64,000 bases of DNA, taken from Paragyromitra xinjiangensis (taxonomy: Eukaryota; Ascomycota; Pezizomycetes; Pezizales; Discinaceae). Made by a program: the position numbers and the translations under genes. Under the pieces are notes generated by a model. It was not told the origin of the DNA. It made no database searches and worked only from the letters and a program-made list of their open reading frames with translations. Position 1 is the first letter of the stretch, and every line of letters begins with the position of its first letter. Below, one piece after another: positions 482-63,439 of this stretch. The DNA lies in the NCBI GenBank assembly GCA_038503065.1, contig JBCAMK010000006.1:1302001-1366000 (forward strand). The letters run 5' to 3'.

Positions 482-790
482 CGTTTATTTATTTATTTAT
501 TGTTCATACTCACATGCATCCGAATCGGATATGGCGTACAATAAGAGAAAACCCAACAGGAATGAAAAAAAAAAAAACAAAAACAAACTAACTAAATCCT
601 CCACCAGTTCCATCTCAGCCTCTCTCAGGCTTGTCGTCAGTTGATATGATAAGGAAAGACAAGTGACTACCCGAAGATCTCAACCTGTTCCTTTTTCCTT
701 CACCATCGCATGTTTTGTGCCTATAGCACTCCTTCCACTGAGTCCTAAGACCCCTGAAGGCTGGTTGAATCATAACAGGTAGGGGAAAAC
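482..790 (-). other. H1 3' UTR with conserved stem-loops and (AATA)n tail
   Basis: On the minus strand this holds a GCTATAGGC-type block, a stem-loop at 617-631 (AGCCT/AGGCT, preceded by CTGACGA at 634-640 and followed by GAGATGG), and a tail-proximal hairpin ATCCG-ATT-CGGAT (517-530). It ends in repeated AATA. The same elements lie in the same order in H2 and, in diverged form, in E. They are candidates for the sites by which the reverse transcriptase of an autonomous partner recognises the RNA. Confidence 0.7.
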
Positions 791-2338
791 TTAAACAACC
801 ATGCGATCCTGACGTTCGCTGGCTCTAAGTCTTGCTTGGGTGAGTGTGAGGCAACCAGAGAAGTTACCACGATGCTGTTCGTTACAGTTCTTGCAACGGA
901 TGATAGTGTGGAGGCAGGGAGCTCCCTTGATGGTGCAAGAGGAGGTTGCGCAAGAGTGAGAGGATGCTGTATGTGGCCCAGCGCAGATGTTGCAGTAAGG
1001 GGTTTTGCTGGTACAGCGTTGTTGTGGGTGGCCAAAGGCCAGGCAGGTAGTGCATTGGGTGTCTGGCCCAAAGCGAAGGTATTTGGTGACTTTGTGACGA
1101 AGTCCAAACATGGAGAGCCCTCTCTCAAGGGCAGTGGTGGCAGGCTGCTTCCCCACAATGGTAAGAACCATGGAGGATGCCTGTTTCCCCTCTCTCTGCT
1201 CAGGTCTAGTGAGCCAGCGGGGGTCGCAGAGTAGGGTGGTGCCTGGGTTAAACTGCTCAACCTCAGACCTGATCTGCTGGAATCCCTCTTTGCCAGAGGG
1301 GATGGAGGTGGGAACGTTGTGCACAACAACTTGGGTCAGGACTGCTTCCTTCTCCATGCTGGTGGCATTGGGAATGGTGGTGCGAACAACTTCCTCAAGC
1401 TTCTGTCTTTGCTTAAGGAGGGAGTCGGAGGTGGTGGAGGTGACAGCAATGAGCTGCACATGATGGGCAGGAGTGAATCGCACTTCTGCAATCAATGGCC
1501 TTTCCAGGGCAGCATTGACTGCATTGCAAATGAGGAGTGGGGTGATGTCATCAGGGATGGGTAGACCATTCCTGGTAATGATGAGGGTTCTGTCGCGTTT
1601 GGGAGGCGCTGTGGGTTGTTTGGGAGGCTTGGAGGCCTTGTTGGCGGGTCTGGAAGCCTTTTTAGAGGCAACCTGAGCCCAGGAGGTGGTGGCTGGTGGG
1701 GGAGCAGATGCTGGAGGTAGGGGGAGGTTGGCAGAAGTCAGAATGGTTGTGAGGGTCCGCTTCTGTTCAAGGTCTGCAACCTTGGAGGTGAGGGTAGCCA
1801 CCTTTTCCACTAGAGCTGGGTCGTTGTGGAAGGTAGGGGCTGGTGGTGGGGTGAGGATGGCTTTTTCAAGCTGTTTGACGTGTTTGGTGAGTGCTTTGAT
1901 GAGCCTGTTCTGCTCATCCATCACTGCAAAGAGGGAAGGGTTGTAGTTTTCCCCAGTGCCAATGGCACCAAGGCGATCTAGATTGCTGTTGCTGTCATCC
2001 ATCTGGATGACTGGAGGTAGGGTGGTGGAGAAGGTGAGGGGTCCCTCAGTGTCCGTCATGTCAGAGTCAGACTCTTCCAGGAGGACAGAGCCACTGTCTG
2101 TAGGCTCTGTGGCGGGCAGGGAGGCATAGTGTGGTAGGGGGACTGCTGGGCAAAGTGGCAGGGCTTGTGTAGGTGTTTGCTCTGGGTCCCCATGGAGCAG
2201 AGGCGAAAATTGGGTGTTTGGGGGTGTTGTAGGGGCGCCAAAGGGCGTTTGGAGCGAGTTTTGAGGTGAGCTAGCCACAGAAGAGGGAGACCTGAAGCCT
2301 CTGCCTCTCCCTCTGCCTCTAGACGAAGAGGAAGACAT
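791..2338 (-). CDS. LINE ORF1 (gag-like RNA-binding protein) of H1
   Basis: A 515-residue intact ORF with ATG at 2336-2338. The N-terminus is an Arg/Gly/Ser-rich stretch (MSSSSSRGRGRGRG). A Pro/Thr/Ser-rich region follows, then a predicted coiled coil (about residues 150-200, with LIKALTKHVKQLEKA), a Lys/Pro linker, a conserved central domain and three C-terminal CCHC-type zinc knuckles: CTTCLAFGHPQQRC, CNICAGPH with following Cys, and CKNCNEQHRG with following Cys. Tad/I-type ORF1 proteins of this plan bind element RNA and help form the retrotransposition particle. An intact frame in an element with no ORF2 suggests that ORF1 is retained for a purpose, or that the copy is very young. Confidence 0.9.
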   Translation of the reverse strand: MSSSSSRGRGRGRGFRSPSSVASSPQNSLQTPFGAPTTPPNTQFSPLLHGDPEQTPTQALPLCPAVPLPHYASLPATEPTDSGSVLLEESDSDMTDTEGPLTFSTTLPPVIQMDDSNSNLDRLGAIGTGENYNPSLFAVMDEQNRLIKALTKHVKQLEKAILTPPPAPTFHNDPALVEKVATLTSKVADLEQKRTLTTILTSANLPLPPASAPPPATTSWAQVASKKASRPANKASKPPKQPTAPPKRDRTLIITRNGLPIPDDITPLLICNAVNAALERPLIAEVRFTPAHHVQLIAVTSTTSDSLLKQRQKLEEVVRTTIPNATSMEKEAVLTQVVVHNVPTSIPSGKEGFQQIRSEVEQFNPGTTLLCDPRWLTRPEQREGKQASSMVLTIVGKQPATTALERGLSMFGLRHKVTKYLRFGPDTQCTTCLAFGHPQQRCTSKTPYCNICAGPHTASSHSCATSSCTIKGAPCLHTIIRCKNCNEQHRGNFSGCLTLTQARLRASERQDRMVV

Positions 2339-2766
2339 GGAGGAGGGTCCTGAACCGACAGGAGGTGGGGGGGGTGGTTGCTGTGCCCTGGGGGGGAGGG
2401 CTGGCGGTTGGGAATGGGAAATCGATCAGAACTTCTGCAGTTCTGGTCGGATCCGAACAAACGAGAGGGCGATCGAACGGGCGCGTCGAGGCGGTTCCAA
2501 AAAGCCCGGGGTCGAGCTAATCGGACGAAAACTGGTGGAGTTATGAGAAAATGCAGAATCTCAAGATTTGGTGAGGTTTTTGTGAAGTGAGGGGTAAATA
2601 AGCGAATTCGACAACAACTTTTGCAAATCCGGAGCAAACCAGACGTACAATAGCAGGATCGAACGGGGGCAGCGAGGCGAGTCCGAATAATCAAAAAGTA
2701 GAGCAATTGGAGTAAAACTGGTGGAGTTGTGACCAAAAAGTCACTTTGGCGTTGTTGTTGTCGGTC
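2339..2766 (-). promoter_or_regulatory. H1 5' UTR of two tandem ~185-bp monomers
   Basis: The 15-mer AACTCCACCAGTTTT (minus strand) occurs twice, at 2713-2727 and 2528-2542, 185 bp apart. After each copy the sequence continues in parallel (ATT.GCTC, CTTTTTG, CGCCTCG, CCCGTTCGATC). The 5' UTR is therefore made of two diverged monomers, as in some mouse L1 promoters. E has related words (CCAGTTCTTGTCCGATT at about 16330) in its own 5' UTR. A promoter role is inferred. H2 keeps only the ORF-proximal monomer. Confidence 0.55.
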
Positions 2767-3207: not shown

Positions 3208-3940
3208 TGTAACGGGGGTGGTCCTCTAGACAACTGCTAAGGCTAGGTAGGAAAATGGCTTTTGCTTATACTAAAGTAAGGCTGAGATCTTAAAGTATTT
3301 TCGTGCAGTATACTCAATAATCTTAAGGGCGGAACTTGGTAATTCTCGTCACTAGGTCTCTGGTTGAAGATAGAGAAGAGCAACTGGTGGCGGGGCTCGC
3401 CAGTACTTGTAGTACTGCATGCTCGCCGCCTCTACTCAGTTCTACTCAGCTGGGGGATCCAGTTAACCCTGAATCCTGTCAGTGATCATGGGCGGGTCTC
3501 TTCGGAAGTGTTCTCTCACATTCCGCTGGAGTTCTGCACCTCATGTGCAACCGCTCCTCATGCACTGCTCTACCAGTCAGGACTCTATGATCCGCCAGCC
3601 TAGTCCTGCAGGACTACTTGCATGGCGCTGATCAGTCCATAGTTGCGTCAGGTGTCCGCTAGAATAGTTCTCCCAGTTGCGCTGCCTATAAGCCATGGCT
3701 GGTGGGGCATGCACAGGTGGGTTAGGAACTCAACCGCATTTCTATGTGCTTGATGTCATCGGAGATCTGCTACAGGCCCGTCAGCCTTAGCACCTCCGGA
3801 TGTTCCTAACCACCAGGTCAGCGGGGTACTGGTGTTCCCTAGCATGTGGTAGCAACTCCACTCATGCTGGTCCTTGTACCTCTCCGTCTGCCCAGGTCTA
3901 TTCTACCATTCGCATGTAACAGCCTTGTGGGTCTGTTACA
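3208..3940 (-). repeat. 3' LTR of gypsy element G0
   Basis: A 733-bp LTR bounded by TGTAAC and GTTACA inverted ends. Read on the minus strand it starts TGTAACAGACCCACAAGG and closely matches the 733-bp 5' LTR of G2 at 30801-31533 over its whole length, so G0 and G2 belong to one family. It lies immediately downstream (minus strand) of a polypurine tract, which makes it the 3' LTR. It sits inside the Plavaka remnant. Confidence 0.9.
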
Positions 3941-4259
3941 GTACCTCCCTCTCCTAAATCCTGTCTTCGGGATCTTTTACTGCTTGAGTTCTATAGTCTA
4001 GTCTATTCTTCTAAACTTCTAGGTCTACTACTCTAGTACTGTAAAAGGAAATTTTCGTGTACATAGCGGAAATGATTTGAACCAAAGGAAAACAAGAACT
4101 ATAAGGAAATGGGCTACTCTGGCCCCGCAATCCTCCTGTCTCGCGGCTTCTTAGGGTACCTCTTGTGGAAATCTGAAAGGGCCTCTTCGGCACTATTTCT
4201 AAGATGTTCCCATGGTTCCCATGTAGCCTCTTCCTGATCATAACCTTCCCACAGCACCG
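3941..4259 (-). pseudogene. G0 integrase C-terminus with chromodomain, plus polypurine tract
   Basis: On the minus strand, 4117-4259 encodes the end of a chromovirus integrase: VLWEGYDQEEATWEPWEHL is a classic chromodomain core, followed by a short basic tail (HKRYPKKPRDRR) and a stop at about 4114. Between the stop and the LTR lies about 170 bp ending in AGGAGAGGGAGGTAC (3941-3955 on the plus strand), the polypurine tract that primes plus-strand DNA. Chromodomains of this class direct integration to heterochromatin. The rest of pol is missing because LINE L1 begins at 4260. Confidence 0.85.
4251..4259. repeat. Target sequence ACAGCACCG at the 5' end of L1
   Basis: These nine bases belong to the chromodomain codons of G0 (the complement of codons for V-L-W). 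The almost identical ACAACACCG follows the poly(A) tails of L1 (10001-10009) and L2 (15703-15711), directly before the next element. This is what is expected if each LINE entered the same target and duplicated it. The first A can also be counted as poly(A). Confidence 0.6.
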
Positions 4260-24261: not shown

Positions 24262-24962
24262 TGTAACGGGTACACCGTTACTGCCTCTAGCATGTGTAGT
24301 AGAATAGGGCCGGACTGATGGGACAGTAGGAGCCTGCATCGGTGGGGTTGCTCCCACATGCAGAGAGCTACCGCGTCCCACTGATCTGGTTGATACAGAG
24401 GAACCGCATGTGCATAAGCTGACGAGCTGACGGCACATAGACGGCTGCATCTACCACTCCGAGGAAGTGGTAGAGTTCTGAATCAACCTGTGCAGTATGC
24501 ATCAGCGGAAGCTGATAGGCAACGCACTGGCAGCGCTATCTACAAATAATACACATGCGGATTAGACTGAACTGTGCCGCGCATGTAGAACTGCAGTGTG
24601 CAGGACTATGCCGGTGGTTCATAGAGTCTAGAGTGGTCAGATTGCTAATGGAGGTGCGGCAGCTCTTGGAGCATAGCCCCCGGAAGTACGGAAGGTCTTC
24701 CGGAGTAGAACACCAGTCCATTTGGCAATGGGACTCCGGGTCAAACCCAGTCCCCACTAGAGCACGGCAGAGCGAGGACTGCGGAACGCAGGTGTTAAAT
24801 ACATCGCGAATGCTCCACCCTGCTGCTCCATTCTTCAGCGATAGTAGAGCCCTTAAGATTCTTGAGTAGTTTGCATGAAAGAATCGGATTCTGAACCTGA
24901 TCTATATCCATTTCGCAACGGCCGTACACCTAGCCTATCTACCTAGGCCTACCCCCGTTACA
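24262..24962 (+). repeat. 5' LTR of G1
   Basis: 701 bp from TGTAACGGGTACACC to CCCCCGTTACA, with 6-bp inverted ends. The sequence after it starts GTAGAATCTTA, and G2 has GTATAATCTTA at the same place, so this is the likely primer-binding region. I do not recognise a tRNA match in it. The copy at the other end of the element is outside the window, so LTR identity and age cannot be assessed. Confidence 0.85.
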
Positions 24963-25198
24963 GTAGAATCTTATCTCTCTACTTCACCTTCAGAATCACT
25001 TCCTGTAGCCCACCGGTACATGAGTTGGCTTTCGATCCTCTTCAGCTGTTTGAAGAGGAAACCTTCGATTCCTGACCACATCCATTGGCAGGAGAACTAC
25101 CCTGAGTGGCTAGACGAACAGTATCTGCGAGATCACTGTTCCAGCACCAGTACAATCGAACTACCACAGCGAGCACTCCTATACCCCAAGCTACAGCA
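24963..25198 (+). other. G1 leader between LTR and gag ATG
   Basis: 236 bp starting with GTAGAATCTTA. The gag frame is open upstream of its first ATG back to about 25106 but has no ATG there. No strong hairpin or ribozyme core was noticed in this stretch. Confidence 0.5.
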
Positions 25199-27413
25199 AT
25201 GGCATCACGTTCTGGACGATCCTCCAGCCGCAACACCCCAGCGTTAGGAGCACCCGCTCCTCCCCTTCAGATTCAATGGGAGAAGAAGACGCTGGCGGTT
25301 GGAGACGGAGAAGATGCACAGCTAGTCAAAGCCCCAAAGACAACCCTTGAGAAGTACATCCCAGGTGTCCAGACTAACTGGACAGATCGGTCCAAGGTCA
25401 CCATTGCTGAGTTCTTTGAGCACTACCAAGAGCATATGAAGAGCTACATCAACAGCACGGTTGCCCAGGCAGGACATGCCTTACGGATGCTAGAGGAACG
25501 GCAGTCAGCTGAGCAGACCCTCATGAAGGATGCCATGAATTACCTGAATGATCAGGCCCAACACTTACAGCAGCGAGTGCAACACCTGCTGCTGTCAAGG
25601 GACGAACTAAGCGGAACGGAACCTATGGACCTAGATCTACCGGAGCAGGCTGCTCCACTGGACTACCTAACCATTGTGCAGGAAGCTATCCGGAGTGGAC
25701 AGCTACACATCAAGGCTCCAGAAGAAAGGATAGGAAGGCCAAGGTCTAACACTACGTTCCCTTTAGAGTCATTTCCCCTACCACTCGCACCCCCACCTCC
25801 AGCACCACAACCACGACGAAGAGCACGTTCCCAGGCTCCTATAGATGAGTCCTGGATGCCCCTCGGCCTCTCTGGCAGATCCAGAACACCCCTACCCCCT
25901 TCACGCGGCTACGGTTCGAGTACCTGGGGACTTGGAGGATCTCAGCACTCTGGTGGTGGTGGTTTGCCTCCTGTAACCCCTCAGGGTACATCAGGACGGG
26001 CACCACAGAGAACACCACCTGCTAATTCACCTCCGCCCCCCTTCGACCGGCCGGCAACACCAAGGGAGGAGAATAGAGGAGAAGGAGAAGCAGCGGGCAA
26101 CGGAGGAGATAATGGTGGACAAGGAGGAGGTGGAGGAGGAGGCAGAAGGGTAGGAGGAGGTGGTGGTAGGGACCCGGATTCCAGTGATAGTGACTCTGAA
26201 CCTGAGGGTGCAGATCCTAAAGCCTGGAAGAGGTACTACCATCGCAAGATGAGAAAGCAGGAGAAGAGAATGATGAAGATGATGGCCACGATGATGGGAG
26301 CAGGCGGCGGCATGTCTAACGCTGCCAGCAGGACCCGAGAACCCAAGGCACCACAGCCTGCTAAGTTCAAAGGAGAAGCCCATGATGTCAACCGTTTCCT
26401 ACGCCAGTGTGAGAACGTCTTCTCGATAGAAGCATCCTCCTTCCAACAGGATGTCATGAAGATCCGTTACACTGGCAATCTCCTGGAAGGCAACGCAGTG
26501 CTCAACTGGTATGAGGCCTACTACAACCTCATCGACCAAGGAGCAGCTGATAGGGCCGCAGGGCGTCCAGTAGTCCTGGATGCTCACTGGTTCTCTTGGG
26601 CCACCTTCACGCTTTCATTTCGGTCTTCGTTTGGGGATAGAGTCACCAGGGAAGAAGCGGTAGCTAAGTGGGATAAGCTCTCACAGACCGCCGGTATCGA
26701 TGCCTTCTTGGACCAGATAGTGCAGTTGATGTGGAAAACAGGCTATAGCGGCGAGGTAGTGGATGATAAAATATCCCAAGGCCTCAACGCAGAATTAGCC
26801 CTCAATTGGGCTAAGGTAGCTGTTAAACCTGCCTCTCTTCATGAGAGGATTCAACTAGTCCGGCACATGGGTCATGTTCTTGAGAGATACAAGAAGACAA
26901 GGCCCCCAGAACGGAAGGAAGAAAAGAAGGGTGGTGGCGAGAATAGTGGAAAGAAGAGGGGTGAGCAGAAGGGTCAGAGTACCACTGCTACCTCTGATAA
27001 AAAGGCCGCTGGTGAGAATAAGACTCCGCCAGTGAAGAAGGATAAAGCTGTGGAGCTAAAAGGTATGTCTAAGTACTACCTTCCTTTAAGACAAGTACCT
27101 GACTGACCCGTCCGCATTCACAGGAATACCAGAGAGTATCCTGGCAGAGAGGCGCAAGGCCGAAGTCTGTTTAAAGTGCGGAAAGAAGGGGCATTCATGG
27201 GGAAAGTGTTGGACTCAGGTTCCTGTGGTAGCTAGAGTAGCAGCCACGAGGAAGAGGAAGAGAGCAGAAGAGCAAGAAGCCTCTGCTGTTCCACCAGAGT
27301 CTAAGAAGGGAAAAGCAGCCGCAGTAGCGGCAGTCCATAGTCCTGTTCCTCTCAAGGCAGAACCTGAGAGATTGTTTGTAGTAGATGAGGATAGTGATCC
27401 TGAGATCTACTAG
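25199..27413 (+). CDS. G1 gag, two exons: capsid then CCHC nucleocapsid
   Basis: Predicted as 25199-27062 joined to 27124-27413, 717 residues. Start is ATG 25199 (MASRSGRSS), which aligns with the G2 start. Exon 1 holds an N-terminal domain (PPLQIQWEKK), a coiled coil (LRMLEERQSAEQTLMKDAM), a Pro-, Gly- and Asp/Ser-rich low-complexity middle, and the gag capsid region (AKFKGEAHDVNRFLRQCENV, WYEAYYNLIDQ, SFGDRVTREEAVAKWDKLSQ). Exon 2 carries one zinc knuckle CLKCGKKGHSWGKC and a Lys-rich tail. Unspliced RNA would end in the intron and give a Gag without the knuckle. Gag packages the genomic RNA. Confidence 0.88.
27063..27123 (+). other. Spliceosomal intron in G1 gag
   Basis: 61 nt with donor GTATGT, branch-like CTGAC (about 27100) and acceptor TTCACAG. 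Removing it joins frame 2 of the capsid ORF to frame 0 of the zinc-knuckle ORF exactly inside a glycine codon (LKG|IPES). It contains an in-frame TGA. G2 has an intron at the identical position (33411-33468) with different internal sequence. Confidence 0.85.
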
Positions 27414-27612
27414 ATAGCCGTTCATTAGTCTTAATATCATCTCGTTCATACAACAGTTGTACTGAGGAGGCCTGATAGGCCGAAATCGCTGGATCGATAT
27501 GCAACTTCTCCTAGTTAATACCCAGCTCAGAACCATAATCGATACCTGCACAGAAACCTGCTCAACGATCATTGACATCGTTGGTTGCGCTAGTATCACA
27601 GTACAAACAGTC
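27414..27612 (+). other. G1 gag-pol spacer
   Basis: About 200 nt between the gag stop and the conserved pol ATG. It contains the hammerhead at 27456-27505. After the predicted cleavage point no ATG occurs before the pol start at 27613. A 7-bp hairpin (CAACGAT 27563-27569 with ATCGTTG 27577-27583) lies further down. The word CGATCATTGA is shared with G2. Confidence 0.65.
27456..27505 (+). ncRNA. Hammerhead ribozyme (type I) of G1
   Basis: All parts of a hammerhead are present on the sense strand. Stem I 5' arm GUUGUA (27456-27461); core CUGAGGA (27462-27468); stem II GGCCU/AGGCC with loop GAU (27469-27481); GAA (27482-27484) plus A27485; stem III AUCG/CGAU (27485-27488 with 27495-27498) with loop CUGGAU; cleavage-site base A27499; stem I 3' arm UGCAAC (27500-27505, one G-U pair). 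Cleavage is predicted between 27499 and 27500, inside an AUG. Stem I is the open stem. The G2 copy has different stem sequences that still pair. Long peripheral loops are not obvious, so speed is uncertain. Confidence 0.88.
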
Positions 27613-30600
27613 ATGTCCACAGGCTACACCCCATACAATGACGGCATGCATAAGACCTTGTCCGAGAGACAAAAGGCAAAGCGTCAGCGAAGCCATAGCC
27701 CTAGTGGAAACCCACCATCGAAGAGAAGACTAGAAGAACCGCCAGCACAGCCAGTACATGGTCAGAGGCCTATACTGAAGGCTGAGTTGAACTGGAAGGT
27801 GCGGAAGCATATCAACAGGTGCCATGGTAAGTTCCTGTTCGATACTGGCTGCACCGGACCTATCCTCAGCGAGGAGTTTGTGAGGAAGGAAGGGATACCA
27901 ACAGAGAAGCGTGAGGTTCCCATCCAGATGCTTGATGCCCAGGGTGACCTGATGATGGGAGCTGGCGAGTATTTTACTGCCCCCCTAGACATGGTCATGG
28001 GCAAGCATGAGGAACTGATCCGTTGGGAGGTTGGACCTCTAGAGGGAGGCATCTCCGGGTATCTGCCTATCTCATGGGCACAGAAGCACAACCCAGACAT
28101 TGATTGGCATACCGGCCGCATCCATTGGCGTTCCGATTACTGCCACAAGAACTGCATCCCCACTGACGTCCACATAGAGGTGTGCGAAGACTGGGAGATG
28201 ATGGCAGAAGACCGGACCAATGTGCATCAGATTGGAGCTGCGGTTTGGCATGATGATAGCGGAGGAGATGTGAGCCTGAGGCTACCAGCGGGGTACAGGG
28301 AATGGGCGGATGTCTTCAGCAATGAGAAGAGCTCAAAGCTGCCGGAGCATGGTGCTTTCGATCACCATATCAACCTACAACCAGGAACGAAGCCACCGTT
28401 TGGGCCCTTGTATGCTTGCTCTGAATCCGAGCTCAAGGCCCTCCGGGAGTTCCTGAACAAGGCCCTGCCATCCGGAAAGATATCAAGGTCCAATTCCCCC
28501 GCCGCTGCGCCTATCCTGTTCGTTCCTAAGCCTAATGGTACTCTCCGCATCTGCGTTGACTACCGGGGCCTTAACAGGATCACAGTAAAGGATAAATACC
28601 CGCTACCGCTGATGTCTGAGTTGAGGGACAGGCTGAGAACCGCCAAGGTCTTTACCAAGATTGACCTGAAGGATGGGTTCAACCTGTTAAGGATAGCCAA
28701 AGGGGACGAGTGGAAGACGGCGTTCAGGACCCGGTATGGCTTGTATGAGTACAATGTCATGCCCTTCGGCCTCTGCAATGCCCCGTCATCGTTCCAGGCT
28801 ATGATCAATGAGGTGTTGCATGACCTATTGGATCTGGGAGTGATAGTATACTTAGATGATATACTTATCTACACAGAGACAATTGGGGAGCATCAACGCC
28901 TCGTTCAGAAGGTGCTGCAGAGGCTTCGAGAGGCAAGTCTGCATGCACACATAGACAAGACCTTCTTCCACTTGAAGGAGGTTGAGTACTTGGGATACCA
29001 GATCTCCGAGCGTGGCATCTCTATGTCTAAAGAGAAGGTCAACGCTGTGAAGGACTGGCCAGTCCCTAGGAACGTGAAGGATGTGCAAGCCTTTTTAGGC
29101 TTTGCCAACTTCTACCGCAGGTTCATCGCCGGGTTTAGCAAGGTGTGCAAACCATTGACTGACCTGCTGAGGAAAGAAGGGAAGTGGCACTGGACCGCTG
29201 CCTGTGACAGGGCTTTCGAGGAACTCAAGCAGCTGTTCACCAGCGAGCCTATCTTGGTCCACTTCCACCCACAGAGACGCACAGTTGTAGAGACTGATGC
29301 TTCGGACTTTGCGAAGGGAGCTGTGATGTCCCAGTATGGCGAGGATGGCAAGCTGCATCCTGTTGCTTTCTATAGCAAGAAGCACTCGCCAGCTGAGATC
29401 AACTATGACATCCATGATAAGGAAATGGGTGCCATAGTAGCTGCGTTCCGGGAATGGGAGCACCTTCTTAAGTCCGTTGAGGGAGAGGTTGTGGTCTTCA
29501 CTGATCATAAGAACCTAGAGTACTTCAACAGTACTAAGGTTTTGACCCGCCGGCAGGCCAGATGGGCTGAGGACCTGGCGGGGTTTGATTTCAAGGTCAT
29601 TTACAGACCCGGTGAACGGAATGGCAAGCCTGATGTCCTATCTAGACGTTGGGATCACCGTCTGGGAGAGGGAGGTGAACCTGCTGCCCCACAGCCGCAG
29701 TTGTTTTTCCGTCCTGGACAGCTTGTCATGAACTCAGCCAGACTTAGTGCTGTGAGAGTTCACCAGCTGCAATCGCCGTTCCTGCAGAAGCTGAGAGATG
29801 TGTCGTTGGGAGATGAGCAGTGGCAAGGGATCCGTAAGGCTTTGGAGGAGAAGAAGACTGGACTTGACCAGGCGTTGTCCCTTTCTGAGGGACTGGTGTT
29901 CTTCAAGAACCGCTGGTATGTCCCGGAAGGCAGAGACCTCCGGCAAGAGATCTTCTCTGAGAACCATGATAGCAGGATCGCCGGGCACTTTGGGCAGTAC
30001 AAGACCGCTGAGAGGATCAAGGCGAACTTCTACTGGCCCAATATGGACAAGGACATAGAGGAATACGTCCGCAGCTGTGATAGCTGTCAGAGGAACATGA
30101 CAGCTCGCCACAAGAAGTATGGAGAGCTGCTTCCCTTGGAGATTCCCTATCGCCCTTGGGCCTCAATTTCTATGGACTTCATTGTGGGACTACCTGAGTC
30201 CAACGGGTACACCAAGGTGTGGGTCATAGTTGACCGCTTCTCCAAGATGGCTCACTTTATTCCGCTGCCAACACTGAATAAAACTGAGGACATGGCGAAG
30301 CTCTTCCTTACTGAGGTATGGAAGCACCACAGGCTCCCTGAGGACATAGTCTCGGACAGAGACAGCAAGTTCCTTTCCCATTTCTGGCAATCATTGATGG
30401 ACCTCCTCTCAGTTAAGCTGAACCTATCGACGGCATTCCACCCACAGACAGATGGCCAAACGGAACGGGTTAACCAGACACTGGAGCAGTACATGCGTAC
30501 GTACTGCTCCTATCAACAGGACGACTGGGCAGAGTCACTACCTCTTGCGGAGTATGCCTATAACTCTGCCATCTCGGAGGCTACTAAGTACTCGCCGTTC

Positions 30601-30800
30601 TGCGCCAACTATGGGTTTGAACCTAGAACCAACTGGCCCAAACCAAAGCCGTCTACTGAGTGGAGCAATCCAGCGAGCGAGGTGATCATTTCACAGTGGG
30701 AGACTATCTGGGGACACATGAACGCAAACCTGGCAAAGGCAAGACTCCGGATGGCCTGGTGGTATGATAAACACCACATGAAGGCGCCAGAGGTAAAGCC
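27613..30800 (+). CDS. G1 pol: protease, RT, RNase H, integrase (C-terminus lost)
   Basis: Open frame from ATG 27613 (MSTGYTP, shared with G2) through 1062 codons to the G2 insertion. Protease LFDTGCTGPILS (~76). RT: CVDYRGLN, YGLYEYNVMPFGLCNAPSSF and YLDDILIY (~412). RNase H: VETDASDFAKGAV (~561) and TDHKNLEYF. Integrase: HHCC finger (H..H..CDSCQ, ~785-825), then catalytic D in SMDFIVGLP (~855), D in VSDRDSKF (~912) and E in DGQTERVNQ (~951). The chromodomain expected after this is missing because G2 starts in the codons after EVKP. The same frame is open up to 27499. Pol is not in frame with gag and no slippery site is evident. Confidence 0.93.
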
Positions 30801-31533
30801 TGTAACGGACCCACAAGGCTGTTACATGCGAAAGGTAGAATAGACCCGGGCAGACGGAGAGGTACAAGGACCAGCATGAGTGGAGTAGCTACCACATGCT
30901 AGGGAACACCAGTACCCCGCTGACCTGGTGGTTAGGAACATCCGGAGGTGCTAAGGCTGACGGGCCTGTAGCAGATCTCCGATGACATCAAGCACATAGA
31001 AATGCGGTTGAGTTCCTAATCCACCTGTGCATGCCCCACCAGCTATGGCTGATAGGCGGCGCAACTGGGAGAACTATTCTAGCGGACACCTGACGCAACT
31101 ATGGACTGATCAGCGCCATGCAAGTAGTCCTGCAGGACTAGGCTGGTGGATCATAGAGTCCTGACTGGTAGGGCAGTGCATAAGGAGCGGTTGCACATGA
31201 GGTGCAGAACCCCAGCGGAATGTGAGAGAACACTTCCGAAGGGAACCGCCCATGATCACTGACAGGATTCAGGGTTAACCGGATCCCCCAGCTGAGTAGA
31301 ACTGAGTAGAGGCAGCGAGCATGCAGTACTACAAGTACTGGCAAGCCCCGCCACCAGTTGCTCTTCTCCATCTTCAACCAGAGACCTAGTGACGAGAATT
31401 ACCGAATTCCGCCCTTAAGATTATTGAGTATACTGCAGGAAAATACTTTAAGATCTCAGCCTGACTTTAGTATAAGCAACGGCCGTTTTCCTACCTAGCC
31501 TTAGTAGTTGTCTAGAGGACCACCCCCGTTACA
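30801..31533 (+). repeat. 5' LTR of G2
   Basis: 733 bp from TGTAACGGACCCACAAGG to CCCCCGTTACA, same length and family as 3208-3940 (minus). It is followed by GTATAATCTTA, the likely primer-binding region shared in form with G1. It contains a CATGCAGTACTACAAGTACT palindromic stretch near 31320. Confidence 0.9.
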
Positions 31534-31573
31534 GTATAATCTTAAGGACTCAGTCACCTTGAGATCACCCATC

Positions 31574-33758
31574 ATGAGACCCTCCCGCAGATCCGAAACC
31601 CCGGCGATCAATGCCCCGGTGCTTCCCCTTCAGATTACATGGGAGAAGAAGGAACTAGCAGTAGGAGAGACGGACATGACCCAACTAGTCCACCGCCCGA
31701 AATCCACCATCCAAAGACATATCCCAGGCATCTCCACTCCATGGACAGACACATCAAAAGTCACCATAGCCGATTTCTTCGACGCATTTCAAGACCATCT
31801 CATGTCCCAGATCAACCTATCGGTTGGGGATACCACACAGACCATGAGAATGCTACAGGAACGGCAAGAAGTGGAGAATACCTTGTTGCGGGAGGCTGCC
31901 GAGTATTTGGACCGGAAAGTCCTCAATCTCCAGCAGCATCTACAACAGTTGCTGACGGACAAAGATGACCTCGCAACTGATCCCATGGATATAGACCCCC
32001 CCGAAGCAGTTGGAATTCCTGACTACATCGGAGCACTACAGCAAGCCATTACAGAAGGCCGCCTACACATCACCGCACCCCCCAAACCAGTGGCAGGAAG
32101 AGAAAGATCAAGTAGTGTCTTTCTCTCAGATACCTTCCCAATTACCACACCTACCAATAAAGCAGACCCCCCATCGTTACCTCCCGCAGTTCAAAAACCA
32201 GCAGTTAGTTTTGCGCCCTCAGGCTCATCCTCTACTCCAATACCTCCGCAGACACCTAGAGGTCCCTTTTCTTATGGACCTTGGTCCCTTGCAGGCGGCA
32301 GTGGTTATACACCACCACCCCTCGATAGTGGTAGCTCATGGCTACCAAGAGGAACATACCCAAGGCCCTCGGAAGAAAGGAAGGAAGAAGGAGAAAGTAG
32401 TGGAGGAAGAACAGGAAGAGAAACTAGTGAACAGCAAGGGCAGGGAAACGAGAACCAGGGAGGAGGAGCAGGAGGAGGTGATGGAAATATAGGAGTAGGA
32501 GGAGGAGGAGACCCCGGTGATAGTAGCAGCAGCAGTAGTGAAGGAGGTGAAGAGAGGGATCCGAAGGAGTGGAAGAAGTATTTCCGCAAGAAGCAGCGGA
32601 AAGCAGAGAAGAAGATGTTGGAGATGATGGCTACAGTTTTCAGCAGTGGCACCGGTCCCACCTCTACTAGGAGCCTCAGGGGACGAGAACCCAAGGCACC
32701 TCAACCCAGCAAGTTCAAGGGAGAAGCTACTGATGTGGACCGATTCCTCCGGCAATGCGAAAATGTCTTCACCATTGAAGCTTCCAGTTTCCAGCAGGAA
32801 TCAATCAAGATCCGCTACACTGGCAACCTTCTCGAAGGACATGCAGCAGTCAACTGGTATGAGGCCTACCATAACCTCATAGACCAAGGTGCTGCCGATA
32901 GAGCTGCAGGACGACCTGTACAGCTTGACCCTCACTGGAACCATTGGGTCACCTTTTCCAATTCCTTCCGATCATCTTTTGGTGACAGGGTCACCAGAGA
33001 AGAGGCGGTAGCTAAGTGGGATAAACTCTCCCAGACCGCCGGAATCGATGCTTTCCTGGACCAGATAGTCCAACTCATGTGGAAAACCGGTTATGCTGGC
33101 GAGGTTGTGGATGATAAAATATCCCAAGGCCTCACTGCTGAACTGGCTCTGGACTGGGCTAAGGTTGCAGTCAAACCTCAGTCCCTCCATGAGAGGATAC
33201 AGATGATCCGCCACATGGGGCATGTCCTGGAAAGACATAGGAAGGTTAGAGCCCCGGAGTCCAGGGCAACAGGAGAAGGAGGTGAGAAGAAGAAGAGATC
33301 CAGAGGTAGAGGCAAAGGTCAGAGTACCGCCACCTCCCCTGAGAACAAGTCCACTCCCGGGGGTAGTAACCCACCGCAGGAGAAGAAAGATAAAGCTGTG
33401 GAGCTAAAAGGTATGGCAGAGTCCAACCTCCCTTGATAAGACACCACATGCTAACCACCCCTTGATAGGAATACCCGAGGGTATCCTTTCCGACAGAAAA
33501 AAGGCAGATAAGTGCCTGAAATGCGGAAAGGGTGGACATGCATGGTTTAAGTGTTGGACTGCTGATCCGGTAACTGTTAGAGTTGCGGCAGTAAGAAAGA
33601 GGAAGAGAGGAACTGAGCTAGAGGCCAGTGATCCTCCGGAATCTAAGAAGGGAAAAGTTGCCACTGTATCTAGATCAGGACAGAGTTCCGGCAGTCTCAA
33701 ACAGGAGACTGGTGTATTTACGGTAGTAGATAATGACAGTGGACCTGAAATCATCTAG
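31574..33758 (+). CDS. G2 gag, two exons: capsid then CCHC nucleocapsid
   Basis: Predicted as 31574-33410 joined to 33469-33758, 708 residues from ATG 31574 (MRPSRRSETPA). Same plan as G1: PLQITWEKK near the N-terminus, coiled coil (MRMLQERQEVENTLLREAAE), low-complexity Gly/Ser/Glu-rich middle, capsid region (SKFKGEATDVDRFLRQCENV, WYEAYHNLIDQ, SFGDRVTREEAVAKWDKLSQ), then after the intron the knuckle CLKCGKGGHAWFKC and a Lys-rich acidic-ended tail. Middle regions differ strongly from G1 while the capsid is well conserved, as expected of two functional lineages. Confidence 0.88.
33411..33468 (+). other. Spliceosomal intron in G2 gag
   Basis: 58 nt with donor GTATGG, branch point CTAAC (about 33450) and acceptor TTGATAG. 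It joins the capsid frame to the zinc-knuckle frame at the same glycine codon as in G1 (LKG|IPEG). Inside it the gag frame ends within about ten codons. Confidence 0.85.
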
Positions 33759-33946
33759 CCTAGTCATTCTTTAGAAATATATTTCGTTGGGCAGGACCCT
33801 ATTGCTCCTACTGGTACTGAGGAGGGATAATATCCCGAAATTTGCTGGTCAAATATGCCAGTTCACCCAAGCTATACCCAGATACAGATATAGCCATCGC
33901 TAGCGATCATTGATACCCTGCGATCGAAAAGAAAACCTCAACCACT
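33759..33946 (+). other. G2 gag-pol spacer
   Basis: 188 nt between the gag stop and the pol ATG. It contains the hammerhead at 33811-33861. Downstream of the predicted cleavage point the first ATG is that of pol (33947). Confidence 0.65.
33811..33861 (+). ncRNA. Hammerhead ribozyme (type I) of G2
   Basis: Stem I 5' arm CUGGUA (33811-33816); core CUGAGGA (33817-33823); stem II GGGAU/AUCCC with loop AAU (33824-33836); GAA (33837-33839) plus A33840; stem III AUUUG/CAAAU (33840-33844 with 33850-33854) with loop CUGGU; cleavage-site base A33855; stem I 3' arm UGCCAG (33856-33861). Compared with G1 every stem has paired base changes, while the core, the GAAA, the CUGG start of loop III, the cleavage A and the U-G pair of stem I are kept. 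Cleavage is predicted between 33855 and 33856. Confidence 0.88.
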
Positions 33947-36499
33947 ATGTCTACAGGCTACACTCCATTTCAAGGCGGCATAAGTAAGACCAGACCCGAG
34001 AGGTCAGTGGCAAAGCGCCAGAGAAGTCCCAGTCATGAAGACCACCCACCAACGAAGAGAAGAATGGAAGAACCCCCGCCAGAACCCGTCCATGGGCAGA
34101 GACCCATCCTGAAGGCTGAGTTGAACTGGAAGGTGCGGAACCACATCAGCAGGTGCCATGGAAGGTTCCTGTTTGACACTGGATGCACTGGGCCTATCCT
34201 CAGCGAAGAGTTTGTGAAGAAGGAGAAGATACCTGTGGAGCGCCGAGATTCTCCTATTCAGATGTTTGATGCCCAAGGTGACCTCATGATGGGAGCTGGC
34301 GAGTATTTTACTGCCACCCTCGACATGGTCATGGGCAAACATGAGGAGTTGATCCGGTGGGAGGTGGGACCTTTAGAAGAAGGCATCTCCGGATATCTTC
34401 CCATCTCATGGGCTCAGAAGCACAACCCAGACTTTGATTGGCATACTGGCCGCGTCAGGTGGAGGAGTGACTATTGCAAGAAGCATTGCATTCCCGCCGA
34501 TGTCATGATTGAAGTATGTGAAGACTGGGAGATGTTGGCCGAAGATAGGGCCAATGTACATCAGATTGGATCAGCAGTGTGGCATGATGAGCAGGGCACA
34601 GATGTGGGATTGAGGTTACCGCCGGAGTACCGGGAATGGGCAGATGTGTTCAGCAATGAGAAGAGCTCAAAGCTACCGGAGCATAGTGCATTTGACCACC
34701 ATATCAGATTGCAGCCCGGAACGAAACCACCTTTTGGGCCTCTCTATCCATGCTCTGAGAGTGAGCTGAAGGCCCTCCGGGAGTTTCTGAACAAAGCACT
34801 ACCCTCCGGAAAGATCTCCAGGTCCAATTCCCCCGCCGCCGCTCCTATCCTGTTTGTGCCCAAGCCTAATGGTACCCTCCGCATTTGTGTGGATTACCGG
34901 GGCTTGAACAAGATCACAATCAAGGACAAGTACCCACTTCCGCTGATGTCAGAACTGAGAGACAGGTTGACCACCGCCAGGGTCTTTACCAAGATAGACC
35001 TGAAGGATGGGTTCAACCTGCTAAGGATCGCCAAAGGGGATGAGTGGAAGACAGCTTTCCGGACCAGATATGGCTTGTATGAGTACAATGTCATGCCATT
35101 TGGTCTGTGCAATGCGCCCTCCTCATTCCAGGCTATGATCAATGAGGTTCTACATGACCTCCTAGACCTCGGAGTTATAGTATACTTAGATGATATACTT
35201 ATATACTCTGAGAACATGGAAGGACACCAGTTCCTCGTCAAGAAGGTGTTAGGAAGGTTGAGAGAAGCCAACCTCCATGCCCACATTGACAAGTCCTTCT
35301 TTCATTTGAAAGAAGTGGAATATTTGGGGTACAACATCTCCGAGCATGGCATCTCTATGTCCAAAGAGAAAGTCAATGCTGTCAGGGAGTGGCCGGTACC
35401 TAGAACTGTGAAGGATGTGCAGGCCTTCTTAGGCTTCGCCAACTTCTACAGGAGATTCATAGCAGGTTTCAGTCGGGTTTGCAAGCCCTTGACGGATCTG
35501 CTGATGAAAGACAAGAAGTGGTTCTGGACTGCCGCTTGTGACAGAGCTTTCGAGGAACTCAAGCAGCTGTTCACAAGCGAGCCGGTCCTAGTTCATTTTC
35601 ACCCCAGTAGGCGCACAGTTGTAGAAACTGATGCAAGTGACTTTGCGAAAGGTGCAGTGTTATCTCAGTATGGCGAGGATATGAAGCTACACCCTATGGC
35701 CTTCTACTCCAAGAAGTTTTCCCCCACCGAGATAAACTATGACATCCATGACAAGGAAATGGGCGCCATAGTGGCTGCTTTCCAAGAATGGGAGCACCTT
35801 TTGAAGTCAGTAGAGGGAGAAGTCACTGTGTTCACGGACCATAAGAACCTCGAGTACTTCAACAGTACCAAGGTCTTAACCCGCCGGCAGGCCAGATGGT
35901 CTGAAGACCTGGCGGGTTATAACTTTAAGGTGGTCTACAGATCTGGTGACAAGAATGGGAAGCCAGATGTCCTATCCAGACGGTGGGATCACCGCCTAGG
36001 AGAGGGAGGTGAACCTGCAGTTGCAAAACCACAGTTGTTTTTCCGTCCTGGGCAATTGGTATTGAACCCTGCTAGGCTAGCGGCCATCAGAGTTCACCAA
36101 CTCCAGTCTACATTCTTGCAGAGGCTTGAAGCTGCGGCAGCTCAAGATATCCAGTGGCAAGGCATCCGCCAGGCACTACAGGAGAAGAAAGAAGGATTAG
36201 ACCCGTCACTGTCCTTCAAGGATGGTTTAGTGTTCTATAAGAACCGATGGTATGTCCCGGAAGGCAGAGACCTCCATCAGGAAATCTTCACTGAGTGTCA
36301 TGATAGCAAGATGGCCGGTCATTTCGGGCAGTTCAAGACAGTTGAGAAGATCAAGTCCAACTTCTACTGGCCCAACATGAATAAGGACATTGAAGAGTAT
36401 GTCCGGAGCTGTGACAGCTGCCAGAGGAACAAAACCGCCCGCCACAAGAAGTATGGTGAGCTATTACCTCTGGAAGTGCCCTACCGACCCTGGACCTCA
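33947..36499 (+). CDS. G2 pol: protease, RT, RNase H, integrase finger (truncated by L4)
   Basis: Open from ATG 33947 (MSTGYTPF) for about 851 codons. Protease LFDTGCTGPILS; RT with CVDYRGLN, MPFGLCNAPSSF and YLDDILIY; RNase H with VETDASDFAKGAV and TDHKNLEYF; integrase finger ending in CDSCQRNKTARHKKYG. It ends at YRPWTS, exactly where G1 has YRPWASISMDFIVG, so the LINE array L4-L9 separates the zinc finger from the catalytic core. Codons beyond 36499 belong to L4. Confidence 0.92.
36491..36499. repeat. Target sequence TGGACCTCA at the 5' end of L4
   Basis: These nine bases are integrase codons of G2 (W-T-S); G1 has TGGGCCTCA at 30157-30165. The same 9-mer sits at every visible junction of array 2: 42238-42246, 44328-44336, 50069-50077 and 60985-60993. 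Confidence 0.75.
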
Positions 36500-52669: not shown

Positions 52670-54829
52670 CATCAGCAAAAAAAAAATGTCGCCCCGACAC
52701 TTTCTTGTCTTCCGGAAGGCCATATCCCGCCCGCTGCGTTAGTGGCCTTCCCTACAACCCAGGCGACCTGGCTCGAGCGCTGGCCTGTGTGGGCGCAGCT
52801 GCACAACGCTCCGGCCTCCTGGCGCTCGGCTGCGACCACCCGCGCCCGGATGTGGCACTTAGCGAAATCCAGCAGGCTCCACCCATCGAATTTTTCTAAG
52901 TCCCTGGAAACTCGGGACTTAGCAAAATTCACCTCGCCTCCTCCCAGGCACTTAGCGATTTTCAAAAATCTCCAGGTCGCTTAGTCATCGCTTAGTAGTC
53001 GCCATGCCGTCCCCAAAGCAACGCCTAATAAGACACCAATCTCCACCTCTCCCGTCCTTCCTACTATTGCTTCCCCCTATTCTCTCCCACCCATCCCCTA
53101 TTCCTCCGCCCATCCCCTATTCCCTCCCACCCATTCTCAACCTCGCTGTACCATAGGACTTTGCTAACATCGTGACTTTTAGGCTCGAAGTACTAAGCTC
53201 TGTTTGCAAAGAAACTCCTAGGTAACGTCTTGCTTCCGCTTATATGACTCCCGCTGATATGCCTCCTAGACTTGCTTTGATCCGCTGCTTCAGCTTCCTC
53301 CGCTGCTTCCGCCTAAGCGAGCTCAGGAGGCAGCTCAATTGGCTGATCGATCCGCTGCCTGAGCTTCCTCCGCTTCCGCCATATGGTCGATTCGCTTCCT
53401 GAGCTTCCGCCGCCTCCTGGAGGTCGTCGATCTGCTGCCTGAGCTTCCTCCGCCTCCGCTATATGGTCGATTCGCTTCCTGAGCTTCCGCTGCCTGCGCC
53501 ATATGGTCAATTCGCTGCCTGAGCTTCCGCCGCCTCAGTCAATTGATCGATTTGCTGCTGAAGCCTCCGCTGCCTTCGCCATATGGTCGATTCGCTGCCT
53601 GAGCTTCCGCCGCCTCCGCCATATGGTCAATTCGCTGCCTCCGCCATATGGTCGATTCGCTGCAGCAGCCTCCGCTGCCTGCGCCATATGGTCGATCCGC
53701 TGACTGAGCTTCCGCCGCCTCAGTCAATTGATCGATTTGCTGCAGCAGCCTCCGCTGCCTGAGCTTCCGCCGCCGCCGCCTCCGCCACAGCTGCAGCAGC
53801 TTTTGCTGCCTGCGCCATATGGTCGATCTGCTGTCTGAGCTTCCGCCGCCTCCGCCACCTCCGCCACAGCTGCAGCAGCTTCCGCTGCCTGCGCCATATG
53901 GTCAATTCGCTGCCTGAGCTTCCTCCGCCTCCGCCAATTGGTCAATTCGCTGCTGCAGCTTCCGCTGCCTGCGCCATATGGTCGATTCGCTGCCTGAGCT
54001 TCCGCCGCCTCAGTCAATTGATCGATTTGCTGCTGCAGCTTCCGCTGCCTGCGCCATATGGTCGATCTGCTGTCTGAGCTTCCGCCGCCTCCGCCACCTC
54101 CGCCACAGCTGCAGCAGCTTCCGCTGCCTGCGCCATATGGTCAATTCGCTGCCTGAGCTTCCGCCGCCTCCTGGAGGTCGTCAATTCGCTGCCTGAGCTT
54201 CCTCCGCCTCCGCCAATTGGTCAATTCGCTGCTGCAGCCTCCGCTGCCTGCGCCATATGATCGATTCGCTGCCTGAGCTTCCGCCGCCTCAGTCAATTGA
54301 TTGATTTGCTGCAGCAGCCTCCGCTGCCTGCGCCACATGGTCAATTCGCTGCCTGAGCTTCCGCCGCCTCAGTCAATTGATCGATTTGCTGCTGCAGCTT
54401 CCGCTGCCTGCGCCATATGGTCAATTCGCTGCTGCAGCTTCCGCTGCAGAAGCCTCCGCTCCCCCCTACCCCTAGGATACGAAGAACAGATACATGTACA
54501 TATAGAGCTATATAGAAATAATAGAACGATTGTAAACAAGAATATGGGTGAAAGCATTCAAACTAGACCACAGGGTGACCTGCTGAAAATGTGTTTCTGT
54601 GGGCGCACTGCTCCCCTCCCGCTGTCCTCCAGACGCTCGTCAACCCTCCGTGGTCGCCCAGAGAATAGCCTCCTGAACCTAGGGCGCCCCCATGCCGACC
54701 TCTAGTAAGCTGTCGCCCAGACGTGAAGGGCAGAATTTACAGCCTGAGGGAGGGCTATATTCCGCCCAGACCGCCTGGGGCGCCTGATGCATTGGGCGGA
54801 CCGGGCGACAATCCGTTTTTTTGCTGATG
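52670..54829. mobile_element. D1: 2.16-kb TIR element with TA duplication, non-coding
   Basis: It starts CATCAGCAAAAAAAAAA followed by TGTCGCCC and ends in the inverted form (GGGCGACA..TTTTTTTGCTGATG), giving an imperfect terminal inverted repeat of about 25 bp. It is flanked by TA (52668-52669 and 54830-54831); L8 shows the empty site. The interior holds a GC-rich minisatellite (53270-54460) and no transposase. The TA duplication would fit Tc1/mariner-type transposition, but the ends do not match a family I know. An alternative reading is element ends ACATCAGC/GCTGATGT with no duplication. Confidence 0.75.
53270..54460. repeat. GC-rich minisatellite inside D1
   Basis: About 1.2 kb of imperfect units of roughly 35-40 bp, built from words such as GCTGCCTGAGCTTCCGCCGCC, CGCCATATGGTCGATTCG and CAGTCAATTGATCGATTTGC in varying order. 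Only short open frames arise on either strand, with repeated peptides, and I do not consider them genes. Confidence 0.85.
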
Positions 54830-60993: not shown

Positions 60994-61634
60994 TCCTGCA
61001 CGAGCAAAAAGATCCCTGCAAAACTCCAATACTACGTTGCAACGGCGTTACACACTGCAAAAAGTCTTTAACTCTTCGGCTTCATTTCTCACCACTTCCC
61101 CGCACTCGCACCTTTTCATCGGGTGCTCTGCCCCAAATCATCCTGGATCCGCCCCAAACTCCTCCCAGGAGATCCCGCACACCCTCCCCATCTCCTGTGA
61201 AGCTGGTGACCTTTGGCACCAACTTCACCCTCCCTCTCATCGGCAAGAAAAGAACTCTTTCCAACCCTTCACCAGCTCCCACCCGCTCAGGATCACCCAC
61301 CAAGATGGCTCAACCTGGACCCTCCACCGCACAATCCCTCTTCGATACTGGCCCCCAAGGCCTCACCACAGACTCACAATATCAGGACGAAGCCCTGATG
61401 CATGAACTCCCTGACGATTCCACCCCCAACTGGCTTCGTGACTTTTCTGCTACAGAGGATTACATGCCTGAAATCCCCGACGACGGCAATACTGAGCAAT
61501 TCACAACTTGGCTCTTAAAGTCCAGCTTTGCTCGCCTCAACTCACAGACTGAGGAAAACAACACCCACCTCCTCGCAAAAGTAGCCATGCAGGAAAACGA
61601 CATCCTTAGGCTCACGGATCAAACTAAGATCCTT
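60994..61634 (+). mobile_element. L9: LINE, 5' part
   Basis: Complete 5' UTR and the first 164 codons of ORF1 from CTG 61143 (ATCCTGG), with DILRLTDQTKIL at the end. It is cut at 61635 by H2. The 3' end of an L element follows H2 at 63736, so most of L9 is missing. Confidence 0.88.
61143..61634 (+). pseudogene. L9 ORF1, N-terminal fragment
   Basis: It encodes the Ser-Pro-rich N-terminus, the acidic segment and the start of the coiled coil, and is then interrupted by H2. No internal stop before the junction. Confidence 0.85.
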
Positions 61635-61891
61635 ACTTCCAAAAACCTCACCAAATCTTGAGATTCTGCATCTTCTCATAACTCCACCAGTTTTCGTCCG
61701 ATTAGCTCGACCCCGGGCTTTTTGGAACCGCCTCAGCGCGCCCGTTCGATCGCCCCCTCGTTCGTTCGGATCCGACCAGAACTGCAGAAGTTCTGCTCGA
61801 TTTCCCACCCCCCTCCGCCAGGGACCCCCTCCAGGGCCCAGCAACCCCCCAACACACTCTACCTCCTCCTGTCGGTTCAGGACCCTTCTCT

Positions 61892-63439
61892 ATGTCTTCC
61901 TCTTCGTCTAGAGGCAGAGGGAGAGGCAGAGGCTTCAGGTCTCCCTCTTCTGTGACTAGCTCACCCCAAAACTCACTCCAAACGCCGTTTGGCGCCCCTA
62001 CAACACCCCCAAACACCCGTTTTTCGCCTCTGCTCCATGGAGACCCAGAGCAAACACCTACCCAAGCCCTGCCACTTCGCCCAGCAGTCCCCCTACCTCA
62101 CTATGCCTCCCTGCCCGCCACAGAGCCCACAGAGAGTGGCTCTGTCCTCCTGGAAGAGTCTGACTCTGACATGAGGGACACTGAGGGACCCCTCACCTTC
62201 TCTACCACCCTACCTCCAGTCATCCAGATGGATGATTCTAACAGCAATTTGGATCGCCTTGGTGCCATTGGTACTGGGGAGAACTACAACCCCTCCCTCT
62301 TCGCAGTGATGGATGAGCAGAACAGGCTCATCAAGGCACTCACCAAACGCGTCAAGCAGCTTGAAAAAGCTATCCTCACACCCCCACCAGCCCCTACCTT
62401 CCACAACGACCCAGCTCTAGTGGAAAAGGTGGCCACCCTCACCTCCAAGGTTGCAGACTTGGAACAGAAACGGACACTCACAACGATTCTGACCTCTGCT
62501 AACCTCCCCCTACCTCCAGCACCTGCTCCTCCACCAGCTACCACCTCCTGGGCTCAGGTTGCCTCCAAAAAGGCTTCCAGACCCGCCAACAAGGCCCCAA
62601 AGCCTTCCAAACAACCTACAGCGCCTCCAAAACGTGACAGAACCCTCATCATTACCAGGAATGGTCTACCCATCCCTGATGCCATCACCCCACTCCTCAT
62701 TTGCAATGCAGTCAATGCTGCCCTGGAAAGGCCATTGATTGCAGAAGTGCGATTCACTCCTGCCCATCATGTGCAGCTCATTGCTGTCACCTCCACCACC
62801 TCCGACTCCCTCCTTAAGCAAAGACAGAAGCTTGAGGAAGTTGTTCGCACCACCATTCCCAATGCCACCAGCATGGAGAAGGAAGCAGTCCTGACCCAAG
62901 TTGTTGTGCACAACGTTCCCACCTCCATCCCCTCTGGCAAAGAGGGATTCCAGCAGATCAGGTCTGAGGTTGAGCAGTTTAACCCAGGCACCACCCTACT
63001 CTGCGACCCCCGCTGGCTCACTAGACCTGAGCAGAGAGAGGGGAAACAGGCATCCTCCATGGTTCTTACCATTGTGGGGAAGCAGCCTGCCACCACTGCC
63101 CTTGAGAGAGGGCTCTCCATGTTTGGACTTCGTCACAAAGTCACCAAATACCTTCGCTTTGGGCCAGACACCCAATGCACTACCTGCCTGGCCTTTGGCC
63201 ACCCACAACAACGCTGTACCAGCAAAACCCCTTACTGCAACATCTGCGCTGGGCCACATACAGCATCCTCTCACTCTTGCGCAACCTCCTCTTGCACCAT
63301 CAAGGGAGCTCCCTGCCTCCACACTATCATCCGTTGCAAGAACTGTAACGAACAGCATCGTGGTAACTTCTCTGGTTGCCTCACACTCACCCAAGCAAGA
63401 CTTAGAGCCAGCGAACGTCAGGATCGCATGGTTGTTTAA
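61892..63439 (+). CDS. LINE ORF1 (gag-like) of H2
   Basis: 515 residues from ATG 61892, the same length as H1 ORF1 with only a handful of amino-acid differences. RG-rich N-terminus (SSRGRGRGRGFRSP), coiled coil (LIKALTKRVKQLEKA), basic linker and three knuckles (CTTCLAFGHPQQRC, CNICAGPH, CKNCNEQH). Two open, near-identical copies at distant positions indicate recent mobility of an element with no enzymes of its own. Confidence 0.92.
   Translation: MSSSSSRGRGRGRGFRSPSSVTSSPQNSLQTPFGAPTTPPNTRFSPLLHGDPEQTPTQALPLRPAVPLPHYASLPATEPTESGSVLLEESDSDMRDTEGPLTFSTTLPPVIQMDDSNSNLDRLGAIGTGENYNPSLFAVMDEQNRLIKALTKRVKQLEKAILTPPPAPTFHNDPALVEKVATLTSKVADLEQKRTLTTILTSANLPLPPAPAPPPATTSWAQVASKKASRPANKAPKPSKQPTAPPKRDRTLIITRNGLPIPDAITPLLICNAVNAALERPLIAEVRFTPAHHVQLIAVTSTTSDSLLKQRQKLEEVVRTTIPNATSMEKEAVLTQVVVHNVPTSIPSGKEGFQQIRSEVEQFNPGTTLLCDPRWLTRPEQREGKQASSMVLTIVGKQPATTALERGLSMFGLRHKVTKYLRFGPDTQCTTCLAFGHPQQRCTSKTPYCNICAGPHTASSHSCATSSCTIKGAPCLHTIIRCKNCNEQHRGNFSGCLTLTQARLRASERQDRMVV

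Follow-up and report, generated by a model that had tools for sequence, protein, structure and literature searches.

A type I hammerhead motif between gag and pol of Ty3/gypsy elements in a Pezizomycete fungus

Why so many eukaryotic mobile elements bear hammerhead ribozymes is an unsolved question, and the locus described here raises it in a particular form. The window, which is the whole 64-kb stretch of Paragyromitra xinjiangensis DNA that was analysed, carries two Ty3/gypsy elements (G1 and G2). In each, a hammerhead motif lies in the space between gag and pol, and the balance of output from these two genes is of general importance to LTR elements. The question is whether this motif is real, and what a self-cutting RNA would do at such a place. 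The elements and their parts are on the plus strand of the window.

Anatomy of the two elements and their gag-pol gaps

G1 begins with a 5' LTR at 24262..24962 (TGTAAC...GTTACA, ends read by eye), followed by gag at 25199..27413 and pol at 27613..30800. The gag gene consists of exon 1 (25199-27062) and an exon 2 that carries the CCHC knuckle and the stop codon TAG at 27411-27413. The pol gene encodes RT, RNase H and integrase, with integrase last, which is the Ty3/gypsy order. The 3' end of pol is truncated by another LTR at 30801..31533, which is the 5' LTR of G2. This LTR is only some 65% like G1's own LTR, and a 96% identical copy of it is found at 3208-3941 on the minus strand. The gag of G2 is located at 31574..33758 (stop TAG at 33756-33758), and its pol at 33947..36499 is cut off where LINE sequence starts, at about 36491, with the zinc-binding part alone of the integrase retained. 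Both 5' LTRs have TG...CA ends. G1 is without a 3' LTR of its own subfamily, the 3' end of G2 is missing, and neither element is complete. The first-pass annotation described G1 as autonomous; its pol runs into the other LTR at about 30800, and the term may suit the family but not G1 itself.

Both gag genes have a proposed intron, at 27063-27123 in G1 (61 nt) and at 33411-33468 in G2 (58 nt), with the signals GTATG, a branch site CTGAC or CTAAC, and AG. Once the intron is removed, the capsid part and the CCHC knuckle are joined in one frame, in G1 and in G2 alike. The same capsid/CCHC junction was found in all four Morchella sextelata gag models compared (P0125, P0126, P0137 and P0139), as a protein-level match to genes that may be intronless. 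Three metagenome gag proteins stop inside the proposed intron, as the unspliced frame would, and unspliced RNA would yield Gag without nucleocapsid. A +1 frameshift in place of the intron was also considered. It is disfavoured, because the frame overlaps differ in position between the two copies and also because the four Morchella models show the junction expected from splicing.

In both elements, the sequence directly following the LTR is complementary to a segment that lies 108-120 nt ahead of the end of the LTR (24965-24973 with 24854-24862 in G1, 31536-31547 with 31413-31424 in G2). The complementarity covers 12 exact bases in G2, a length reached by 0 of 1000 shuffles, and 9 bases in G1, reached by 42 of 1000. 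It suggests self-priming, for which Tf1 is the comparison.

The two gypsy elements are lodged among LINE copies. Related LINE copies, together with LINE fragments, form a series at 4250-24260 and 36491-61650 on the plus strand; RT was detected in six of six long LINE ORFs scanned, and endonuclease in four. The LINE/gypsy series is possibly a subtelomeric or otherwise targeted array. In addition, an inverted repeat of 2.1 kb with 96% identity lies close to both ends of the window (488-2592 and 61631-63738), and there is a tandem repeat array with units of about 40 nt (53347-54444).

The gap between gag and pol is 199 nt in G1 (27414..27612) and 188 nt in G2 (33759..33946), and both gaps have stops in all three frames. 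The homologous start codons of pol are the ATGs at 27613 and 33947; in G1 the start is most likely 27613 and not the ATG at 27499. The frame of pol relative to gag is not the same in G1 and G2. With stops in every frame and a frame relation that differs, a Gag-Pol protein by -1 frameshifting or by readthrough of a single stop is impossible. As the reading frames of Gag and Pol are separate, with about 190-200 nt between them, frameshifting is not the way in which Pol is made. Inspection of the G1/G2 alignment by eye showed no conserved splice that would link gag with pol over the hammerhead.

Each gap contains a single AUG, at 27499 in G1 and at 33855 in G2, and the A of this AUG is the cleavage base of the hammerhead. 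In uncut RNA the gap AUG shares the frame of pol in G1; in G2, where it lies 92 nt before pol, it is in another frame. The predicted cut is 86 nt past the gag stop in G1 and 97 nt in G2, and the leader that follows it (113 nt and 91 nt, respectively) is AUG-free up to pol.

The hammerhead motif and its conservation

The motif of G1 (27455..27506) is of type I, and its core and stems were identified by descriptor and pair matching. The first-pass annotation gave the core as CUGAGGA, GAA, an A15.1-U16.1 pair and A as cleavage base, all of which were found as stated, the base being A27499. Of the three stems it listed, stem II (5 bp, three-base loop) and stem III (4 bp, the 15.1-16.1 pair counted in) stood, but the open stem I has 7 bp (27455-27461 with 27500-27506), one more than had been claimed. 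The known hammerhead mechanism fixes the position of the cut, which is predicted at 27499..27500, after A27499, between GAUA and UGCAAC. A second hammerhead is present at the homologous place of G2 (33810..33862; predicted cut after A33855) and was recognised by descriptor, alignment and covariance model. Both motifs have what a hammerhead core requires, CUGANGA, GAA, the 15.1-16.1 pair and a cleavage base H, and in the comparison of these two copies the three helices round the core have been kept by evolution.

When the helices were aligned by hand from the core outwards, G1 and G2 shared 16 pairs, of which 10 were unchanged, six were altered on both sides yet still paired, and none was broken; compensated changes were present in all three stems. 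Stem III of G2 has one pair more than that of G1 (5 bp against 4 bp). The MAFFT alignment kept 15 of 15 pairs with five double changes, a count that omits one stem III pair as the stem length differs, and when the partners were slid by 1-3 columns in this alignment, 23-43% of the cells paired. Thirteen of 500 shuffles of the two sequences matched the observed pairing, in a test that is weak by nature with two copies only. The core was identical in 13 of 13 aligned columns, with one gap column beside, and the flanks in 23/38 (5') and 40/84 (3') columns, gap columns set aside.

The age of the split can be read from the genes. Over 851 codons of pol (27613-30165 vs 33947-36499), dS was 1.17 and dN/dS 0.087. 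For gag, dN/dS was 0.17 in exon 1, where dS was saturated at 2.1, and 0.29 in exon 2. No stops were found in any compared stretch of gag or pol in either copy. A pol dS of about 1.2 with low dN/dS means that the lineages of G1 and G2 have long been separated and were selected for most of that time, and such an old split together with the compensated changes argues that the ribozyme structure was long kept by selection. The second copy, with its compensated changes in all three stems, supports the earlier claim that a fungal Ty3/gypsy element has a hammerhead between gag and pol. Judged from these sequences, the motif is almost certainly real and under selection, and it is probably self-cleaving.

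The type I descriptor, run on both strands of the 64-kb window, matched two places, 27455-27506 and 33810-33862, and the type III descriptor gave one further match in the same window, at 33775-33843, which is a permutation using the G2 core. A background of 60 random first-order Markov sequences, 64 kb each and read on both strands, yielded a single minimal match overall, and nothing that equalled the G1 and G2 motifs in strength. The two-copy covariance model, used with E up to 10 on the window plus 19 relatives, returned only these two motifs.

The first-pass annotation had proposed a check with the Rfam covariance models and had named a missing hit as grounds for refuting the claim, a condition that, taken strictly for Rfam, does apply. 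At the gathering threshold there was no match in the whole window, and a permissive scan of the whole window (E up to 5) gave seven matches, all below the family thresholds and none of them a hammerhead. Against 161 bases only, RF00008 scored 20.9 bits (threshold 48.5, E 0.022) with several positions unpaired, and RF03152 scored 12.8 bits (threshold 56.3). The gathering score is a cut-off curated for detection and no requirement of the structure, and we consider this result to be outweighed by the conserved second copy. The folding energy of the isolated motif was also ordinary: 37 of 200 shuffles were as good for G1 (z -0.89) and 34 of 200 for G2 (z -0.97). Low Rfam score and ordinary energy are what a chance resemblance would give, but the random expectation is near zero, and the covarying motif at the corresponding site of G2 strongly disfavours chance, which is hardly credible here.

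For the isolated motif, the probability of all hammerhead pairs was 0.47 and 0.28 in the two copies. With 15-60 nt of native flank on each side it was below 0.01 in both copies, and in G2 as little as 5 nt of native flank already lowered it to this level. Shuffled flanks disfavour the hammerhead fold likewise, so the effect of the native flanks does not discriminate. The instability of the predicted fold in its native flanks, as well as the conservation of a structure ahead of an independent pol start, would also agree with a translation or packaging signal that has the shape of a hammerhead and no meaningful cleavage in the cell. This is unlikely, since a simple three-stem signal would not need exact conservation of all catalytic core nucleotides.

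Two further structures were considered. An attenuator fold, in which the 5' flank pairs with the core, is not claimed, as 52 to 245 of 300 flank shuffles reached the observed value over ten flank settings. The other was a loop II contact, of the loop-loop kind that makes natural hammerheads fast. If the last pair of stem II is opened, loop II reads UGAUA in one copy and UAAUA in the other, and a 5-mer complementary to it occurs upstream in both; among shuffled 25-nt flanks, 22% and 6% contain such a 5-mer. Loop II could thus form a pseudoknot with the 5' flank in either copy, at a level that chance would also give.

Relatives and other ribozyme-bearing elements

In protein comparison, the nearer relatives in pol are 83-71% identical, Morchella among them. 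A gag search with E up to 1e-5 found 22 relatives, 18 from Morchella sextelata and four from metagenomes. In Morchella, three gag models stop at the corresponding site and are proteins distinct from pol. The protein similarities point to a Pezizomycete host related to Morchella, and we take the type I hammerhead to belong to a Ty3/gypsy lineage of Pezizomycete fungi.

More distant are 19 fungal-type relatives (L001-L019), 35-48% identical in pol and taken from bacterial records. These Ty3/gypsy contigs stand in bacterial and cyanobacterial records (Trichormus, Bradyrhizobium, Erythrobacter and others) and are most likely eukaryotic contamination. Their gag-pol junction, read from open frames, was readable in 12 of the 19. 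Eight (L001, L003, L005, L006, L009, L011, L012 and L019) have a -1 frame overlap with pol, and in four of these (L003, L011, L012 and L019) the upstream frame is recognisable as gag by its CCHC motif. A single in-frame stop lies between gag and pol in L008 and L016, and L013 and L015 have one continuous gag-pol frame. The junction was unreadable in seven (L002, L004, L007, L010, L014, L017 and L018), some of these contigs starting inside pol. No hammerhead was found in any of these 19 distant relatives with the type I descriptor and the two-copy covariance model, and Rfam at the gathering threshold gave nothing in 18 of them (all but L014). Three scans of viral contigs, with pol, a pol alignment and the hammerhead pattern, confirmed no relatives.

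Self-cutting RNA upstream of a retroelement gene is also seen in R2 and other LINEs. Their HDV-like ribozymes differ in belonging to another ribozyme class, and they lie at the 5' end of the element, which they free from upstream RNA. Promotion of translation initiation has been proposed for them, according to an excerpt of PMC7761336. The following comparisons likewise refer to excerpts of the papers cited. Plant retrozymes resemble our elements in that the hammerhead is found in an LTR retroelement linked to Ty3/gypsy; they are non-coding, with two LTRs of about 350 bp round 600-1000 bp (Cervera et al. 2016, PMC4918200), and their hammerheads are of type III, one per LTR (PMC7761336). In contrast, the motif of G1 and G2 is of type I, and each of these coding elements has it a single time, between gag and pol; no type I hammerhead was found in the LTRs, and gag and pol are present, which sets the two elements apart from retrozymes.

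Penelope-like elements and Terminons share with G1 and G2 a type I hammerhead in a protein-coding retroelement (PMC7761336, PMC6431247). Their hammerheads occupy terminal pseudo-LTRs or stretches elsewhere, most of stem III usually being absent, whereas G1 and G2 have a stem III of 4-5 bp, an RT of the Ty3/gypsy type and a motif that lies between two genes. With a Ty3-type pol and an internal hammerhead, G1 and G2 are not Penelope-like. The hammerheads of prophages (PMC3088659) are similarly sited beside genes in long transcripts, but these are bacterial. The first fungal hammerheads were described in interspersed repeats of Yarrowia lipolytica (PMC3088659), a likeness that extends to type I, the type searched for in PMC4870747. 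This fungal repeat is a possible precedent; in the excerpts of both accounts the element is not named and no gag-pol position is given. Among the matches listed from the open-licence full-text literature, as excerpted, none described an LTR element with a hammerhead between its gag and pol. The ribozyme class is known, and its position and job are apparently new.

Possible role of the ribozyme

The reading that we prefer, to which we give nearly an even chance, is that partial self-cutting between gag and pol sets the amount of Pol against that of Gag and genome. Full-length RNA would be transcribed from the LTR, and the ribozyme would cut part of the transcripts 86-97 nt past the gag stop. 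The products would be a gag-bearing RNA and a pol-bearing RNA whose leader, 113 or 91 nt long, has no AUG. The pol-bearing RNA would have to be translated independently of a cap, and uncut transcripts would serve as genome. The cut would in this way set the amount of Pol relative to Gag and genome, and it would destroy the gap AUG. Because cutting destroys the genome, it would have to be partial or timed, and no proven loop-loop contact was found, which would fit slow cutting.

Slow partial cutting would equally fit an active hammerhead that destroys or limits. The uncapped 5'-OH pol RNA might be degraded instead of translated, as 5'-OH RNA halves decay in yeasts, and no known entry-site family was found with Rfam in the window. 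The halves would then be unstable, Pol and genomic RNA would be kept low, and Pol would come from uncut RNA by reinitiation or internal entry. We find this doubtful: a self-damaging motif should vanish over a dS of about 1.2, yet the motif was kept with compensated changes, and the AUG-free leader past the cut resembles a leader in use.

G1 and G2 stand head to tail about 6.35 kb apart with one hammerhead each, and a ribozyme so placed could trim or circularise multimeric transcripts from tandem copies or one-LTR circles. Retrozymes use such processing, as an excerpt of PMC4918200 describes, and the units here would be pol-LTR-gag, with the gag-pol site as unit border. However, the pair looks nested and truncated, unlike a regular array, and the hammerhead is outside the LTR, and we regard this explanation as quite improbable.

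Taking up again the preferred reading, partial cutting that sets Pol against Gag and genome, we suggest tentatively that a lineage of self-sufficient Ty3/gypsy elements may have dropped frameshifting and come to use a self-cutting RNA as a switch between genome, gag and pol, which would also erase a competing AUG. The function is testable, because the site lies between gag and pol in a lineage several of whose distant relatives have overlapping frames. LTR elements are known to set the ratio of Gag to Pol by frameshifting, readthrough and splicing. If our reading is true, self-cleavage would join these ways.
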